DNA of 64,000 nt from Bacteroidetes bacterium HLUCCA01 (lineage in GTDB: Bacteria > Bacteroidota > Rhodothermia > Balneolales > HLUCCA01): contig LIHN01000018.1 of the NCBI GenBank assembly GCA_001314545.1, positions 186,001 through 250,000 on the forward strand. Reading direction: 5' to 3'. Position 1 is the first letter of the stretch, and the number at the start of each line of letters is the position of its first letter. Of the stretch, positions 4,724 to 49,302 are shown piece by piece. The notes under the pieces are model-generated. The model was not told the DNA's origin, did not search any database, and worked only from the letters and a program-made list of their open reading frames with translations. The position numbers and the translations under genes are program-made.

Positions 4724-5776
4724 ATGACTGGAACAACAACGCTATATACACTACCTGAACCGTTCGTAACCGAATCGGGTGAGACGATTACACCGGTACA
4801 GGTAACCTACAAAACCTGGGGAAAACTAAATCAGGACGGCAGCAATGCGGTACTGGTATGTCATGCACTCACCGGGAATGCCGAAGCCGACGAATGGTTT
4901 CCCAGCCTTTTCGGGGATGATGGCATGCTGAATCCGGATGAGCAGTTCATCGTGTGCTCGAATGTACTTGGTGGCTGCTACGGCACCACCGGACCGTGGA
5001 GCGTGAATGCATCCACCGGAAAGCGCTGGCGGGCTGACTTTCCGAAAATCACCATCCGTGATATGGTCCGGGTACAGCAGCTGCTGCTCAGTCACCTGGG
5101 TGTGACCTCCATCGAGCTGGCCCTGGGCGGATCCATGGGAGGCATGCAGGTGCTCGAATGGCTGTGCATGGATGATCGCATTCAGAAAGCAGTCCTCATT
5201 GCCATGGGCAAGGCGCACTCGCCCTGGACTATCGGTTTCAGTGAGGCTCAGCGCCGGGCCATCCGGGCCGACCGTAACTGGAACGGGGGGTTTTATGCAC
5301 CCGATGCTCCGCCGGCTGAAGGGCTTGCTGCAGCACGGATGATGGGGATGATGATGTACAGAAGCGCACCGGCGTTTCAGCGCAGATTTGGCAGAAATTT
5401 ACAGGACGGACATGCCGATTTGCTGCAGGTCAATTCCTATCTGAACTACCAGGGAGACAAGCTTGTTAAGCGGTTCGATGCCAATACCTACATCACGCTT
5501 ACCGAGGCCATGGATACCCACGATGTATCCCGGGGCAGAGGCAGCTATGAACAGGTACTCGGCTCCATTACAGTTCCCGTATTGGTGATGGCAATTTCTT
5601 CGGATGTTCTATATGTGCCCGCTGAGCAGCGTGAGCTCGCCGGTTTACTAGGAAACGCCCGCTATGCCGAGCTGGAATCGGATGAGGGCCACGATGCATT
5701 TCTCATTGAATTCCCAAAAATGGCCGAAATATACCGGACATTTAACCAAAATATTATTTCTACAGACTCCCGCTAA
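4724..5776 (+). CDS. metX: Homoserine O-acetyltransferase
   Basis: MetX is an alpha/beta-hydrolase-fold enzyme that transfers acetyl from acetyl-CoA to homoserine, giving the substrate of MetY. The 350-residue protein has YKTWGKLN and VLVCHALTGNA near residues 30-50 and NVLGGCYGTTGP near 85. The nucleophile elbow GGSMGGMQVLEW lies near 138, and the acid and base of the triad are in SSDVLYVPAEQ and DEGHDAF near 290-325. The overlap of one base with thrA (TAATG) implies translational coupling, so homoserine synthesis and its acetylation are made together. A purine-rich GGGGGGAG lies 15 bases before the ATG, rather far for a ribosome site. A homoserine succinyltransferase of the same fold is the only alternative. 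Confidence 0.94.
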   Translation: MTGTTTLYTLPEPFVTESGETITPVQVTYKTWGKLNQDGSNAVLVCHALTGNAEADEWFPSLFGDDGMLNPDEQFIVCSNVLGGCYGTTGPWSVNASTGKRWRADFPKITIRDMVRVQQLLLSHLGVTSIELALGGSMGGMQVLEWLCMDDRIQKAVLIAMGKAHSPWTIGFSEAQRRAIRADRNWNGGFYAPDAPPAEGLAAARMMGMMMYRSAPAFQRRFGRNLQDGHADLLQVNSYLNYQGDKLVKRFDANTYITLTEAMDTHDVSRGRGSYEQVLGSITVPVLVMAISSDVLYVPAEQRELAGLLGNARYAELESDEGHDAFLIEFPKMAEIYRTFNQNIISTDSR

Positions 5777-8220
5777 TGCTTCATATTCTCAAATTCGGAG
5801 GCAGTTCCGTTGCCTATCCGGAACGTATCATCAATTCCGTGGACATTGTTCGTCGCCGGCTCAAGGAGGTTTCTGTTGCGGTGGTGGTCTCCGCGCTGGG
5901 TGGGGTAACCGATGAACTGATTGCCATCAAGGAGCTCGCCCGGTCGGGTGATGAAGCCTGGCAAGCCCGTTTTGACAGCCTTATATTGCGCCACCACCAG
6001 ACGGCCTCCAAGGTCGCCTCCGGAGCACGCTCGCAGCGGCTTCTGGGTGAACTTAACGTATTGCTGGACGAGCTGAAAGCTACCTGTGAAACCATCTTTC
6101 AGGAAAAAAAACTGTCTGCCCGAACCAACGATTACGTCCTTTCCTTTGGAGAGCGTATGTCATGCCGGATTTTTGCCACGGCCCTTGCCCATGGCGGAAT
6201 AGACGCACAGGCGTATGAGTCTCATCATTTTGTTCGGACCAATAACCGATTCGGCGATGCCGATGTGGACTACACGACCACCCGTGAACTGGTACAACAG
6301 ACACTGGCCCCGTTCAGCGGAACGGTTCCGGTCATCACCGGGTTTCTGGGCTCCACATCGGATGGCGCCATCACCACACTGGGTCGCTCCGGATCGGATT
6401 TCACCGCCGGACTAATGGGACAGGCCCTGGACGCCGACCTTGTGGAAATCTGGACCGATGTCAACGGTGTACTCACTGCCGATCCGAATATTGCCGCAAC
6501 AGCCGTAACCATTCCGAGGCTGCACTACGCTGAAATCGCCGAAATGGCCCATTTCGGCACCAAAGTACTGCATCCGCGCACCGTACTGCCTCTGGAGGAA
6601 GCAGCGATTCCCATCGGTATATACAATTCGTTCGAACCCGATCACCCGGGTACCCTCATTACCCATGAATACTCCCGGACCAACGGCACGCTCAAATCCG
6701 TCTCCCTGAAAAAAGATGTGGTACTCATCGGTTTAAAAAGCAAGGGGCTGGACCGCATCCACAATCTGCTGACCCGGGCTATGGCTTCGTTGCTGGAAGC
6801 CGGGGTAACCGTGCTGTTCAACAGCGCAGCGTCTGCTGAGTTTGGTATCACCTTTGCACTGGACCGGCACGAATCTGACCAGGCCCTAAGCGTGCTGGAT
6901 GAAACGTTTTCAGCGGAATACAAGTCCGGTTTGATTGATGAGCCGCACATTCTGGACGAGGTCAATATGGTCACGGTAATTGGCGACCGTCTGGTCAACG
7001 ATCTGGGACTGAGCGGGGCGGTACTCTCGGTACTGGGTGAAAATCAGATTGCCCCTCTGGCCACCGCCAAAGGTTTGGGAAACCGGCATTTCAGCATGAT
7101 ACTTCCCCAATCGCAATCGTATACTGCGGTACGGTTACTCAACGATCATTTCTGTGTGCATGCACAGCGGGTGCGACTTTTTGTAGCGGGAGTCACGGGT
7201 ATCATCGGTTCGGAACTGCTCACCCAGCTCACCGAAGCAATCGGCGATGAGTATGACCTATCCGTGATCGGTGTATGCGACAAACGCAGCATGTACTGGG
7301 ATGCCGGCGGACTGAATCCGCTTTCAGTGAAGCAAAAGCTGCCGGACAACGCAGATCCGACCAACTGGGGCCTGATTGTCAACCGTCTGATCACCGATTA
7401 CCCTTACCGAACCATATTTGTGGATTGCACCGGCGCCCGGGAAGTTTCCGGGTTCTACACCAAACTGCTCAAAGCCGGCATCCACATTGCCACACTCAGC
7501 AAACGGGCCAACACGGCATCGCAGGCCTACTATGATGAGCTCATGGCCTACACCGAAGGCAAAAAAACGCACTATCTGTTTGAAACTACTGCCGGGGCCG
7601 GATTACCGGTATTTCAGACGCTCAAAGACTTACAGCGTTCCGGCGATCAGATTCAGAAAGTAACCGGTGTGCTATCCGGAACCCTGACCTTTCTGTTTGA
7701 TGCCCTGTTAGACGGCGAGCCCTTCGGAAAAACCATCCGCCTGGCCCGTGAAATGGGCTACGCCGAACCGGACCCCCGCGACGACCTGTCCGGCAAAGAT
7801 GCGGCCTGGAAACTGCTGGGTATTGCCCGGTCCATCGGCATGCGAATTGAACTGGAAGACATGGTGGTGGAAGATTTGGTTCCTGAAGGACTGCGCGAGG
7901 TTTCCCTGGACGATTTTTTTAATCGCGCTGCCGATGCCGATGCCTATTGGCGGCAACTGGTACGCGAGCGATGTGAGCCCGGTCACGTGCTGCGTTATGT
8001 CGGGACCCTGGAAAACGGTACCATTCGCCTGGAAGTCAAATCGGTTCCCCGGATCTCACCCATGGGTGCGTTGGGTGGAATTGACAACCAGATTTCGGTG
8101 TACACCAAACGGTATAACCGCTCACCGCTCACCGTGCAGGGGCAGGGGGCAGGTCGAGAGGTAACGGCGGCCGGATTGCTGGCTGATATCCAGAAAATTG
8201 CCATCCGGATTGTGCGGTAG
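5776..8220 (+). CDS. thrA: Bifunctional aspartokinase / homoserine dehydrogenase
   Basis: A fused enzyme of 814 residues, the usual length of ThrA/MetL. The N-terminal aspartokinase starts with KFGGSSVA near residue 6 and contains SFGERMS and TTLGRSGSDFTAG. ACT-type regulatory sequence follows near 310-460. The homoserine dehydrogenase begins at the NAD(P) loop FVAGVTGIIGSEL near 465 and has LSGTLTFLFDALL and AREMGYAEPDPRDDLSGKDA. It phosphorylates aspartate and later reduces aspartate semialdehyde to homoserine, the branch point to methionine and threonine. It overlaps metX by one base. The ACT domains suggest feedback control by threonine or methionine, which the sequence alone cannot decide. 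Confidence 0.95.
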   Translation: MLHILKFGGSSVAYPERIINSVDIVRRRLKEVSVAVVVSALGGVTDELIAIKELARSGDEAWQARFDSLILRHHQTASKVASGARSQRLLGELNVLLDELKATCETIFQEKKLSARTNDYVLSFGERMSCRIFATALAHGGIDAQAYESHHFVRTNNRFGDADVDYTTTRELVQQTLAPFSGTVPVITGFLGSTSDGAITTLGRSGSDFTAGLMGQALDADLVEIWTDVNGVLTADPNIAATAVTIPRLHYAEIAEMAHFGTKVLHPRTVLPLEEAAIPIGIYNSFEPDHPGTLITHEYSRTNGTLKSVSLKKDVVLIGLKSKGLDRIHNLLTRAMASLLEAGVTVLFNSAASAEFGITFALDRHESDQALSVLDETFSAEYKSGLIDEPHILDEVNMVTVIGDRLVNDLGLSGAVLSVLGENQIAPLATAKGLGNRHFSMILPQSQSYTAVRLLNDHFCVHAQRVRLFVAGVTGIIGSELLTQLTEAIGDEYDLSVIGVCDKRSMYWDAGGLNPLSVKQKLPDNADPTNWGLIVNRLITDYPYRTIFVDCTGAREVSGFYTKLLKAGIHIATLSKRANTASQAYYDELMAYTEGKKTHYLFETTAGAGLPVFQTLKDLQRSGDQIQKVTGVLSGTLTFLFDALLDGEPFGKTIRLAREMGYAEPDPRDDLSGKDAAWKLLGIARSIGMRIELEDMVVEDLVPEGLREVSLDDFFNRAADADAYWRQLVRERCEPGHVLRYVGTLENGTIRLEVKSVPRISPMGALGGIDNQISVYTKRYNRSPLTVQGQGAGREVTAAGLLADIQKIAIRIVR

Positions 8221-8283
8221 AACGATGGTGATATGCTCGGTCAGGTGGCCACTCCATCTACTGGAGAGGCGCCTGTGGGGTAA

Positions 8284-8739
8284 AACTGCTTTCTCCGCTC
8301 TATCCATGAGGCCATTCCCAGAATTCATGCCTATGCAATCAAAGTGGCATCCAGGCACGGGCAGGCCCAGCCTGAACTTGCTGATGTACTGCAAACCTTT
8401 GAGCACTTGTCTAAGGAACTTACAGACCACGCCGATGATGAAGAATCCAGAGTATTTCCGGCCATCCAAAAACTCATGTCCGGCGAAGCAGTGCATACAA
8501 CAGACCTGCAGCCTATGGTACTGGAACTTGAGGTAGAACATGCTTAGGCCGGGGCGGCCATGCAAAAAATACGTAAGCTTACGTGTAATTTCACCCCTCC
8601 TGAGTGGGCCTGCAATACCTACCGAATTTTGTTCAAAGAACTGGAAGCCTTCGAAATAGATCTTCACCAGCACGTCCACCTGGAAAATAACATCCTCTTT
8701 GACAAAACCCGCAGGGCCTGGCGGGGTTTATACGCCTGA
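8284..8739 (+). pseudogene. Broken iron-sulfur cluster repair (RIC/ScdA/YtfE) gene
   Basis: One frame gives two hemerythrin-like halves of a YtfE/ScdA-type di-iron protein. The first has FLRSIHEAIPRIHAYAIKVA, ELADVLQTFEHL, ELTDHADDEESRVFPAIQKL and LELEVEHA. The second has AGAAMQKIRKLTCNFTPPEW, ACNTYRILFKELEAF and DLHQHVHLENNILF. They are separated only by TAG at 8545-8547, where family members have a codon such as GAG (EHxEAG), so one base change explains it. The N-terminal ScdA_N domain with its Cys pair is missing; a stop at 8281-8283 and then the end of thrA precede the fragment. These proteins repair Fe-S centres after nitric oxide or peroxide damage. The neighbouring Rrf2 gene fits that theme. 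Family from recognisable motifs; inactivity is inferred from the stop and missing end. Confidence 0.78.
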
Positions 8740-8864
8740 ACATTAACTTTCTGAAATAATTCGATCTCATCAGCGACAAAAGACTCGTAATTCCTATATT
8801 CAAGAAACAGGGTACATATCCTGAAACGCTGTGTACTCCATTATTTTACCGAGCTAATGCTACC

Positions 8865-9299
8865 ATGATTTTATCAAAAGCGTGTACCTATGGCCTGCTC
8901 GCGGCCTTCTATGTTGCCAAGGAAAATGAACATGAATATGTTTCAATACGGGAAATGAGCAATGATCTGAATATTTCCTTTCATTTTCTCACCAAAATCC
9001 TGCAAAAGCTCACCTCCTACGGTCTTATGCACAGCCATAAAGGTCCGAAAGGAGGCGTTTCGCTCACCAGAGAACCCCGGCTTATTTCACTCAAGGAAAT
9101 CATCCTCGCCATAGACGGGGATGCCGTTTTCACCCATTGTATTCTCGGGTTGCCCGGATGCGGCCACCAAAAACCCTGTCCCATCCATCACGAATGGGCT
9201 CCGGTACGTGACAATTTTCTGAAAATGGTGGCCAATACCACGCTGGCCGACTCCTCTGAGGGTATCCGTGACCTTCACTATCGTATCAAAATGGAGTGA
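8865..9299 (+). CDS. Rrf2 family transcriptional regulator
   Basis: A 144-residue winged-helix protein of the Rrf2 family (IscR, NsrR, RsrR relatives). It starts MILSKACTYGLLAAFYVA and has the recognition region DLNISFHFLTKILQKL. HKGPKGGVSL is the typical wing. Three cysteines, in HCILGLPGCGHQKPCPIH near residues 97-111, are the usual Fe-S ligands. Such regulators sense iron-sulfur status or nitric oxide and repress stress genes. Here it lies between a broken RIC gene and a frameshifted membrane protein gene, so it may have lost its local targets. No clear palindromic operator was found upstream. The exact signal cannot be assigned. Confidence 0.9.
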   Translation: MILSKACTYGLLAAFYVAKENEHEYVSIREMSNDLNISFHFLTKILQKLTSYGLMHSHKGPKGGVSLTREPRLISLKEIILAIDGDAVFTHCILGLPGCGHQKPCPIHHEWAPVRDNFLKMVANTTLADSSEGIRDLHYRIKME

Positions 9300-9337: not shown

Positions 9338-9558
9338 ATGACAACCGAACTGGTCTGGAACCGGTACCTGCTGCCATCTCTTGGCTATCTGGCCGTAACC
9401 CTTGTAGCCGGTCTGCTTTTCTGCTAATCTATTTCGGAATTTTGGTCATCCTCCTGCAAATCCATCCCTTTTCCATGCAGGGATCCCTGCTGCTAAGCGG
9501 ACTCATCCTGTTCATAGGAACTTCCTCCCTTTCGGTCGGGTTTCTGCGAGGCCGTTAA
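9338..9558 (+). pseudogene. Frameshifted small membrane protein
   Basis: A frame from ATG 9338 encodes MTTELVWNRYLLPSLGYLAV followed by TLVAGLLFC and stops at 9425-9427. The adjacent frame from 9424 continues LIYFGILVILLQIHPF, then LLLSGLILFIGTSSLSVGFL, and stops at 9556-9558. Joined near 9421-9424 by a one-base change, they would give a protein of about 73 residues with two or three hydrophobic segments. The family is not recognised. It follows the Rrf2 gene by 38 bases and may belong to the same former operon. It could also be chance hydrophobic sequence, but the match of both frames at the break favours a real, now broken gene. Confidence 0.45.
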
Positions 9559-9667: not shown

Positions 9668-9697
9668 TTGACAATGACAGTTTATCTGCACTACTTT
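9668..9697 (+). promoter_or_regulatory. Promoter of the dcw cluster
   Basis: TTGACA at 9668-9673 is a perfect -35 hexamer, and TACTTT at 9692-9697 is a -10-like hexamer with an 18-base spacer. It lies about 90 bases upstream of mraZ and ends exactly where the MraZ boxes begin, so MraZ bound there would cover the transcription start. Confidence 0.65.
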
Positions 9698-9722
9698 GTG
9701 GGGTAAAGTGGGTCAAAGTGGT
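9698..9722 (+). promoter_or_regulatory. MraZ operator: three GTGGG/T boxes
   Basis: GTGGG at 9698-9702, GTGGG at 9708-9712 and GTGGT at 9718-9722 are direct repeats with 10-base spacing and 5-base spacers (GTAAA, TCAAA). This is the MraZ binding pattern known from E. coli and Mycoplasma, placed just before mraZ. It implies autoregulation of the whole division and wall operon by MraZ. Confidence 0.9.
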
Positions 9723-9784
9723 ACAACTACCCAAAACCCCGCCAAATTAGCAATAATCAACGATTTACATCAGTCACCAACGTC

Positions 9785-10240
9785 GTGCCAAGCTTCAAAG
9801 GGACATACGAGCATTCGATCGACAGTAAAGGTCGCGTCAGCCTCCCTGCCAAGGTACGTCGTTATCTCAATCCGGCATACCCGGACAACTTCACCATACT
9901 ACGCGGACTGCAGCGGTGTTTGTACCTGTACCCGGAAGACCGATGGATGCGTGTTGAAGAGAAACTGGCAAAAATCAGCAATCTGCGCGTCGATAGTGCA
10001 AACGTCATTCGGAACTTTCTTCGCAATGCCGATGACATCACCCTCGACAACCAAAACCGGCTGGCATTGCCTTCGGCACTGACCGATTGGGCCGGCATCA
10101 GCCAGAAAGTCATCATTATTGGAGTGGGAGACCGCCTGGAGCTCTGGAGTCCTGAAGAGCTTGACACGGTTGACGCTTCCATGAGCGAAGACGAATATGC
10201 GAAGCTCTTTGAACAAATTATGGGAGATGTTTCCCTGTAA
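9785..10240 (+). CDS. mraZ: Transcriptional regulator MraZ
   Basis: MraZ is an AbrB-like DNA-binding protein that forms ring oligomers and represses its own operon. The 151-residue protein starts at GTG 9785 with PSFKGTYEHSIDSKGRVSLP, the first SpoVT/AbrB motif. The second copy is DITLDNQNRLALPSAL near residue 90. Length is typical. It is the first gene of the dcw cluster, its operator lies at 9698-9722, and it overlaps rsmH by one base (TAATG). The start is fixed by homology because the MP(S)FKG N-terminus is conserved. Confidence 0.96.
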   Translation: MPSFKGTYEHSIDSKGRVSLPAKVRRYLNPAYPDNFTILRGLQRCLYLYPEDRWMRVEEKLAKISNLRVDSANVIRNFLRNADDITLDNQNRLALPSALTDWAGISQKVIIIGVGDRLELWSPEELDTVDASMSEDEYAKLFEQIMGDVSL

Positions 10241-41542: not shown

Positions 41543-41584
41543 AAGTCTGTATCGGGTAGTATCCGGTACAGACTTTTTTATTTT
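41543..41584 (+). terminator. Terminator after mdh
   Basis: AAGTCTGTA (41544-41552) pairs with TACAGACTT (41567-41575), with an inner extension, followed by TTTTTATTTT. It ends the nadK-mdh unit and lies 22 bases before the cyclase gene. Confidence 0.85.
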
Positions 41585-46785: not shown

Positions 46786-49302
46786 TCAAACTTTCATCAC
46801 CAGAAGCGTCATATCATCGGCAAGTTCATAGTCACTGAAATCCAGCACTTCCTGCTTGAAATATTCACAAATTGCTTCGGCCGACATGGACTGGGTGTTC
46901 ATCGAATTCAGTACCCGGATTACACGGTCGAATTCATAAAGTTGGCCTGTTTTTGAACGCGCTTCCGGCAAGCCATCCGAATACAACAAGAGTGTATCAC
47001 CGCTCTGGAGCTGCAGATGGGTAGTTTTATAGGGTACTTCACTTCGTATTCCAAGGGGCAATCGCGGATTTTCAGAGGATATAAAGCGGGTTTGGTTTCC
47101 ACGTTTGAGCACCGGCTGGCAGTGACCGGCATTCACAAAGTGCAGTATTTGGGTTTGAATTTCGTAGCGGGCCAGCAAACAGGTTATGAAAGACTGTGCA
47201 TCGGTACGACTATGAAGGATAGGGTTAATTCCTGTTAATACCTCAGCTGGATCTTTCCCTGTTTCCCTGGCATTTGAAAGGAGAAGTCCACTGGTGAAAA
47301 TTGCTGTGAGTGCTGCTTTCATGGCTTTCCCGGAGACATCCACTACCGTAAGCATGAGTTCTGCCGGCCGGCCATGCTGATCTTTGATGAGAATATGGTC
47401 ATAGAAGTCACCGCCTACTTCAAAGGACGGAATAAAGAAGCCCTTCACGTCAACGTGCTCAAGATCTGGTGAGGATTTGGGCATCATGGCAAATTGCGAC
47501 TCTTTGGCTATCTGAAACTCCCGCTCAATTCGGAGCTGCGATTTTAATTTTTGCTCGTATTCCGGCACATAGCCCGCAGCAAGCAAATCTTCGCGACCAA
47601 AATGATGCAAGACAACACCACAGGCAAATGGCAGCAGCAACAGTCCGGTGAGTATCCAGCCCTGAGTCATAATAATAGGATCTTCAGACCCCATAAATGC
47701 CCCCGTCCGTGTCACAAGAAAAACAATCCACAACCCAATTGAGGTAGTAAGTATTCCGTAATACCGATAGGCAAGTACGAGGGGAACCGAAAGCAGAAAA
47801 AATGCAAACCAACCACTCAAAATTCCACCCGAAACCGATACAAAGGAGATCCCAAATCCCAATAAAACAGCGGTAACCGAAGAACCGGCAACGGTTAAAA
47901 CAATGGTATTTCGAATGTAAACCCGCATTATACTCAATACAGCACCAAAAAAAGCGTATCCAACCATGGGCACATATGCCAGACTGTTAACCAGGTTGGT
48001 CAATACCGGAAATAAACTGCCTACACTCGAAAAGCCCGTACCGTCATCGTAGATACTGTATACCGAACCGCTTGCATAAAGACCCAATGACCACATTCCC
48101 AGAGCCAGACCGGCATAGGCATACGCAGCCAGGATTGCTTTGCCAATTTTCCGCTGGAAAAAATTCATCTCCCAAAGCGCATCCATATGCGGAACCTGTT
48201 CGTGATTTTGCCGTCGGGCGTAGGCATCCCAAATAAGATAAGCCAGTCCTGCAAAGATGCCAGATACTACGGCTCCAGCCATATAAAACAACATATCCAG
48301 TCCTGCTATTCCGGGTGTCAGCAGTGGATAATACGTGTAATGCATGGTCAGATAGCGGTAAACCAAAAGAAGCACTGTCACAGATCCTGCAATAATCAAT
48401 GACCGCCCCCAAATTACCTGACCCCGGAAAATTAAACGTACTGCTACAACCACAAGCAATACAGTTAGTATCAGCATGGATACAAAGAGAACGATAATCC
48501 TTGACAGTGACAAATCAGACTCAACAGGCACGTCCAGATCCAGCACCGTATACGATGAAAATACCCTGGTAACACGAATAGCCGGACTGAGTACCTCATG
48601 GTCAGAATCATCGGCGCTGACTATATCAGGATGATAAGTAATATGAACCCGTTCAGGCAATCTGCTTACCGAACCCCTTCGAACGTATGTGACCGTATAC
48701 TCTGAATTCTCTCTGGGTACCATAGATACCGGTCTTTCTAAGACCACTACCATCTGTGAATCCGGCAGTAACTCAAATTGATCCGGGTTGAATCCGGAGG
48801 CTTGCAGCACTTTATCCAACGCTGCATTTAAACTGTCAGCGGTAAATAATGCAGCTGCGTTTTCAGGATGGGCCCTGAAAGAACGGACCCTCATCTGCCG
48901 GTCGAAGCTCACACTGGCAAGGCCATATTCGTCGAACAAGCTCTGATCACCTGAAATGGTCTGGACAGACTCATACGGTTGCAGATACATGACAGACCAC
49001 CCACTCAACGGTACCCCTGATCGGTTCAGCGCGAGTGGATTTCTATTGGTTCCTTTGCCCAGTGAATCAATAAGATCTTCATACAGGTAGGTTCGTTGCT
49101 GACGACGGACCAACGGTGTATAAGACGGATAGGAATCCAGGCCAAAATCCTGCATAACCCGTTCAGCACGTTCTATAGCGACAAACCGGCTGGTTTCAAC
49201 GGCACCGCCCGAATGAAGTTCTGTTACCGGTCGTAACGCCAGATAAACCAGAAACCCAAGCACCCCAATGTAAACAATGATATAAACGGTTCGGAAAGAC
49301 AA
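46786..49302 (-). CDS. Membrane-bound SpoIIE-type PP2C phosphatase
   Basis: A large 838-residue protein. An N-terminal membrane helix precedes a periplasmic-type domain of about 250 residues. About ten transmembrane helices follow (roughly 265-590). The C-terminal PP2C/SpoIIE phosphatase has SFEVGGDFYDHI near 640, TVVDVSGKAMKAALTAI near 665, FVNAGHCQPVL near 735, LLLYSDGLPEARS near 785 and ADDMTLLVM at the end. Metal-binding aspartates are intact. Such phosphatases act on anti-sigma antagonists (STAS proteins) and control stress responses; no such partner is in the window. The start is TTG 49302; no better start is near. It heads the hflKC operon. Confidence 0.88.
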   Translation of the reverse strand: MSFRTVYIIVYIGVLGFLVYLALRPVTELHSGGAVETSRFVAIERAERVMQDFGLDSYPSYTPLVRRQQRTYLYEDLIDSLGKGTNRNPLALNRSGVPLSGWSVMYLQPYESVQTISGDQSLFDEYGLASVSFDRQMRVRSFRAHPENAAALFTADSLNAALDKVLQASGFNPDQFELLPDSQMVVVLERPVSMVPRENSEYTVTYVRRGSVSRLPERVHITYHPDIVSADDSDHEVLSPAIRVTRVFSSYTVLDLDVPVESDLSLSRIIVLFVSMLILTVLLVVVAVRLIFRGQVIWGRSLIIAGSVTVLLLVYRYLTMHYTYYPLLTPGIAGLDMLFYMAGAVVSGIFAGLAYLIWDAYARRQNHEQVPHMDALWEMNFFQRKIGKAILAAYAYAGLALGMWSLGLYASGSVYSIYDDGTGFSSVGSLFPVLTNLVNSLAYVPMVGYAFFGAVLSIMRVYIRNTIVLTVAGSSVTAVLLGFGISFVSVSGGILSGWFAFFLLSVPLVLAYRYYGILTTSIGLWIVFLVTRTGAFMGSEDPIIMTQGWILTGLLLLPFACGVVLHHFGREDLLAAGYVPEYEQKLKSQLRIEREFQIAKESQFAMMPKSSPDLEHVDVKGFFIPSFEVGGDFYDHILIKDQHGRPAELMLTVVDVSGKAMKAALTAIFTSGLLLSNARETGKDPAEVLTGINPILHSRTDAQSFITCLLARYEIQTQILHFVNAGHCQPVLKRGNQTRFISSENPRLPLGIRSEVPYKTTHLQLQSGDTLLLYSDGLPEARSKTGQLYEFDRVIRVLNSMNTQSMSAEAICEYFKQEVLDFSDYELADDMTLLVMKV

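Follow-up and report, generated by a model that had tools for sequence, protein, structure and literature searches.

A probable recent pseudogene of the iron-sulfur repair gene RIC/ytfE beside an intact Rrf2 regulator in a Balneolales bacterium

Analysis of a 64,000-nt stretch of contig LIHN01000018.1 (the window) from Bacteroidetes bacterium HLUCCA01 (Balneolales; genome G000, 3.37 Mb, 98% complete) led to the identification of a gene remnant which is very probably a recent unitary pseudogene of the RIC/YtfE family, lying where the gene was inherited, between thrA and mraZ. RIC/YtfE, a di-iron protein responsive to nitric oxide and nitrite, normally protects iron-sulfur proteins from nitric oxide. 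A deletion has taken the promoter region together with the coding sequence for the ScdA_N domain (including its cysteine pair) and for the first hemerythrin helix, which bears a ligand histidine, and a TAG codon interrupts the surviving hemerythrin part; the third gene of the cluster has been gutted too, with the Rrf2 regulator retained. The remnant presumably yields no functional product. A literature search returned no paper on a ytfE pseudogene in iron-sulfur cluster repair.

Genomes and loci compared

When GTDB genomes were scanned with the Rrf2 protein encoded next to the remnant, 26 loci emerged, the closest being L038 (JAIUMT010000005.1, Balneolales bacterium PBR18_bin42). One genome of the same genus (G001) and two of the same family (G002 and G003) were also examined, and a table of residue columns was composed from the RIC remnant and 22 relatives. 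RIC matches at E ≤ 0.001 occur in 25 of 40 genomes of the order, G000 included, and matches above the cut-off in 22 of the 40. The features of the locus are collected in Table 1.

Table 1. Features of the thrA-mraZ region, in positions of the window
Feature	Position	Strand	Evidence or remark
thrA (aspartokinase - homoserine dehydrogenase), upstream flank	5776..8220	+	PF00696, PF00742, PF03447; TAG stop 8218-8220
5' deletion junction	8221..8301	.	81 bp, thrA stop to first base alignable with RIC of L038
RIC pseudogene, first hemerythrin part	8302..8544	+	TIGR03652, PF01814, tblastn, column table
In-frame TAG	8545..8547	+	column variable among relatives
RIC pseudogene, second part	8548..8739	+	TIGR03652 E 1.6e-21; own stop TGA 8737-8739
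Weak operator-like sequence upstream of Rrf2	8778..8797	.	9.1 bits (weight matrix)
Rrf2-family regulator, intact	8865..9299	+	144 aa, three conserved Cys; PF02082 E 2.4e-28
Remnant, start of membrane-protein gene	9338..9421	+	10.7 bits, profile 2-24 of 417
Remnant, end of membrane-protein gene	9421..9558	+	9.5 bits, profile 372-408 of 417; other frame, after internal deletion
mraZ, downstream flank	9785..10240	+	PF02381

Identity of the remnant

Read in one frame, positions 8284-8739 encode a RIC/YtfE hemerythrin domain that the TAG splits into two halves, as an earlier reading of the sequence alone had recognized. When the halves were scanned separately against NCBIfam, each matched TIGR03652 (FeS_repair_RIC) at successive ranges of the profile (first half, E 1.9e-13, positions 81-160; second half, E 1.6e-21, positions 163-215), so the two are collinear and far above chance. 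The stretch 8284-8544 alone matched PF01814 with an E-value of 2.2e-5, and tblastn with an intact relative gave a single alignment spanning the TAG (61% identity over 139 residues, E 8e-57). The search with joined halves that the sequence-only reading had called for placed the product in the hemerythrin HHE family (PF01814, 51.6 bits against a cut-off of 25.3), but the read-through score for TIGR03652, with the TAG inside, was 138.4 bits and thus below the cut-off of 204.7; no single open frame reaches it. The remnant is the only PF01814 match, and hence the only RIC copy, in the whole 3.37 Mb genome, and a PHROGs search with the second half found no match. Within the span first proposed, 8284-8739, alignable homology begins by tblastn only around 8296-8302, which corresponds to residue 87-88 of relatives; the N-terminal ScdA_N domain is indeed missing, as had been noted.

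The remnant thus resembles RIC/YtfE/ScdA proteins (TIGR03652; PDB 5fnn, 9r7j) in its collinear C-terminal hemerythrin domain and five of the six di-iron ligands, and the intact RIC of L038 matches ScdA over 223 residues. It differs from these proteins in lacking the ScdA_N domain with its vicinal cysteine pair (PF04405 lies at residues 5-58 in L038) and the equivalent of ligand His84, in carrying an in-frame TAG and TAA, and in the deletion of the promoter region.

Lesions and metal ligands

Whereas the sequence-only reading held that a single nonsense codon had broken the gene, there is also a 5' deletion, with loss of the His84 equivalent, and an in-frame TAA. The distance from the thrA stop to the first alignable base is 81 bp here and 535 bp in L038 (274 bp of intergenic DNA plus 87 codons), a net deletion of about 454 bp; with these 81 bp in place of the 535 bp of L038, nothing is left of the RIC promoter region, the ScdA_N domain or the first helix. 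The TAA (8278-8280) lies in the RIC frame inside the junction, upstream of the remnant. The junction sequence is single copy in the genome and has no match in L038, elsewhere in the genome or, apart from chance matches of 12 bases, in the rest of the window. A translated RIC relic was sought in 8221-8298; six tests were made, the best of which, with the second frame against G002, gave 14 of 500 shuffles, and we do not claim one.

The metal ligands of YtfE are named in PMC9052748. Where all 22 relatives have a His-His pair, the remnant has Phe-Leu, at the deletion edge; the second histidine of the pair aligns with ScdA/YtfE ligand His84, so that this position is now Leu. After it the ligand order His, Glu, His, His, Glu is retained: the first part of the remnant carries the equivalents of His129 and Glu133 and, ahead of the TAG, of His160, and the second part, with HxHVHLENN, those of His204 and Glu208, which bears out the earlier remark that it keeps metal ligands. 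Relatives had been said to carry Glu at the TAG, but the column holds Gly in 7 of the 22, His in 4, Lys, Ala in 3 each, Ser in 2, Glu in 2 and Gln in 1; the nearest relatives, L038 and G002, have Ala, and none of the 22 has a stop codon.

Gene order in relatives

The thrA and mraZ flanks occur in the same order in L038 and G001. L038 has thrA - RIC - Rrf2 - mraZ with an intact RIC of 227 residues. The genome of G001 contains no RIC match, and its 480-bp thrA-mraZ gap, of which only the last 94 bp are common with G000, is devoid of RIC or Rrf2 remnants. In G002 and G003 the order is RIC - Rrf2 - membrane protein, and in G003 a copper nitrite reductase comes next. Ahead of mraZ, positions 9690-9784 include three TGG repeats with 10-base spacing (TGGGG-N5-TGGGT-N5-TGGTA) which are kept in L038 and G001 and are likely the MraZ operator; a literature search returned no paper on an MraZ operator with TGGGN direct repeats.

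Remnants of the start and end of the membrane-protein gene follow Rrf2 in G000. In the profile test the score of the start remnant was reached by 0 of 493 scored shuffles and that of the end remnant by 0 of 479. Pairwise, the start remnant passed against G002 (1 of 2000 shuffles) but failed against G003 (1810 of 2000), and the end remnant was weak (437 and 47 of 2000); tblastn with the G002 membrane protein detected neither. The intact protein (L036:65-1318, L034:8751-9860) is a multi-helix protein with a HAHSHLA motif, encoded beside RIC-Rrf2 and, in G003, the copper nitrite reductase. It has no Pfam or NCBIfam match and is possibly nitric-oxide-related. A structure model from two sequences reached a mean pLDDT of 52.7 and was set aside.

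Age of the decay

Of the 34 columns in which 95% or more of the 22 relatives agree, the remnant keeps 31, the three lost ones being the His-His pair and one Ile replaced by Val. This retention indicates that the decay is young, in agreement with the earlier suggestion of a real, recent loss, although near-complete survival of conserved residues is also expected of a gene still in use and to that extent counts against a pseudogene. Identity to L038 at the three codon positions is 0.66/0.78/0.30 for the RIC remnant and 0.83/0.95/0.40 for Rrf2. Amino-acid changes in RIC unique to either genome number 10 in this one and 12 in L038 with G002 as outgroup, which amounts to equal rates, and 11 and 5 with G003 (chi2 2.25, not significant). 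Codon-position identities and change counts together indicate that most of the divergence took place under constraint, and the rate with G003 as outgroup leaves room for what may be some older relaxation.

Alternative explanations

A sequencing or assembly error, whereby the organism would have an intact gene and the assembly a miscalled TAG and a collapsed 5' part, would fit the fact that nearly all conserved residues survive. We consider it very unlikely. It would take two or more independent errors in RIC and a third in the gutted neighbour, on a 280-kb contig with unbroken synteny through thrA and mraZ and a junction sequence that is single copy, and in G001 both RIC and Rrf2 have disappeared from this site altogether. 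The single sequencing error that had been offered as a cause cannot account for the deletion, and several lesions (the deletion and the gutted neighbour are not one-base miscalls) rule it out; a miscall at 8545 could not rescue the gene, because the 5' deletion and the in-frame TAA precede the remnant. Horizontal import of a fragment, as opposed to erosion of a resident gene, finds some encouragement in the G+C content (0.43-0.50 here against about 0.55 in thrA), yet L038 holds RIC and Rrf2 in identical gene order, its Rrf2 is 85% identical, and the nearest relatives by sequence belong to the same order, which makes such transfer highly improbable.

Recoding was the other cause suggested earlier: readthrough of the TAG would give a shortened, still working hemerythrin-only protein. 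The TAG lies in a variable column and some related models are shorter, DnrN (157 positions) among them, both of which would be compatible with this. Nevertheless thrA itself ends in TAG, as do 6 of the 45 long ORFs in the window; the first ATG, GTG or TTG in frame after the TAA at 8278 is the GTG at 8344, so that a product started there would lack helix 1 and the His84 equivalent; the deletion has taken the RIC operator along with the promoter region; and 0 of 22 relatives have a stop in this column. Recoding was rejected because of the stop-codon use and the loss of the 5' part, and a working readthrough product appears extremely improbable. ARAGORN found one tRNA-Met only in the 64-kb window. 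A recent unitary pseudogene is thus the preferred reading.

The Rrf2 regulator and its candidate operators

The neighbouring protein belongs to the Rrf2 family (PF02082, 99.4 bits against a cut-off of 30) and is 85% identical to its counterpart in L038 and 66% to that in G002; C92, C99 and C105 are invariant in the alignment of these three sequences. According to PMC1274295, NsrR controls dnrN/ytfE in enterobacteria. With NsrR/Rrf2 regulators (PF02082) the protein shares a score over the Pfam cut-off, the three conserved cysteines and its place adjoining RIC, but against the NCBIfam equivalog model of NsrR it scores 41.4 bits, far from the cut-off of 182, and its candidate operator is AAGAC-N6-GTCTT-like. 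The operator motif of NsrR itself is different. A literature search returned no paper on Rrf2 regulation of nitric oxide or nitrite reductase in Bacteroidota.

A palindrome, AAGA-N8-TCTT, occurs upstream of RIC in relatives, and an operator weight matrix was built from the RIC-upstream sites of 7 of them. Sites of at least 17 bits, outside the training set of the matrix, lie within 300 bp upstream of Rrf2 in 13 of 25 loci, which points to autoregulation of Rrf2 through the candidate operator. In Balneolales and Saprospiraceae (L042-L061), too, related Rrf2 genes were often preceded at a short distance by an AAGAC-N6-GTCTT-like palindrome. L038 has a 10.6-bit operator-like site in the same RIC-Rrf2 gap, and the site before Rrf2 in G000 is no better than others in the window (9.1 bits at 47219, 15.8 bits at 41567). 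The latter, the best match in the window, follows a malate/lactate dehydrogenase gene, resembles a terminator hairpin by eye and was discarded as a false positive.

Elsewhere in G000 the matrix scores 22.8 before nrfH-nrfA (C11:164035-164052; L076:3536; 0 of 200 shuffles), 22.7 upstream of a tetrathionate reductase-family octaheme cytochrome (C3:164787-164804; L077:2788), in a cluster of octaheme cytochrome c, cytochrome b and sulfur-transport genes, and 22.0 at a third site about 700 bp before a TonB receptor. Since genome-wide matches to the operator pattern number 3 against 2 in the reversed control, only their places are informative. Neither nrfHA nor the octaheme cytochrome occurs in G001, G002 or G003. 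The nrfA loci of relatives are mostly without a strong site: 4 of 14 other loci tested with shuffles (L084-L097) have one with P ≤ 0.025, and 2 of 7 further loci, scanned whole and without shuffles, reach 15 bits. The genome also encodes three other Rrf2 proteins. Two nearby Rrf2 genes are found next to what, judged by eye, is a pyruvate:ferredoxin oxidoreductase-like gene (L116, G000:C1:104454-105981). In G002 an exact operator match precedes a second Rrf2 gene along with genes for a cytochrome c and a nitrous-oxide reductase of the Sec type (L079, G002:C144:37344).

The regulator may have persisted because it still serves the candidate operators before nrfHA and the octaheme cytochrome; recurrence of the operator before these genes, both absent in G001, suggests how it could outlive RIC. 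Given the control counts, the weak site of the regulator itself, the few nrfA sites and the other Rrf2 proteins, we only infer this link. More broadly, the RIC-linked Rrf2 might be a nitrogen-oxide regulator of a Bacteroidota lineage with an operator of approximately TTAAGAC-N6-GTCTTAA before RIC, before itself and, depending on the genome, before nrfHA, the octaheme cytochrome or an Rrf2-cytochrome c-nosZ group; in HLUCCA01 it would have outlived RIC and would now run nitrite reduction alone. We put this forward as a tentative proposal that could well prove wrong.

Conclusions

The analysis removes a possible recoding or sequencing-error lead and reveals a small nitric-oxide locus in three stages: intact in L038, eroding in this genome and gone in G001. 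The remnant is an ordinary pseudogene of a known family; the informative element is the regulator beside it. The surviving Rrf2 and its candidate operator provide a testable claim on how the response to nitrite and nitric oxide may be wired in Balneolales.
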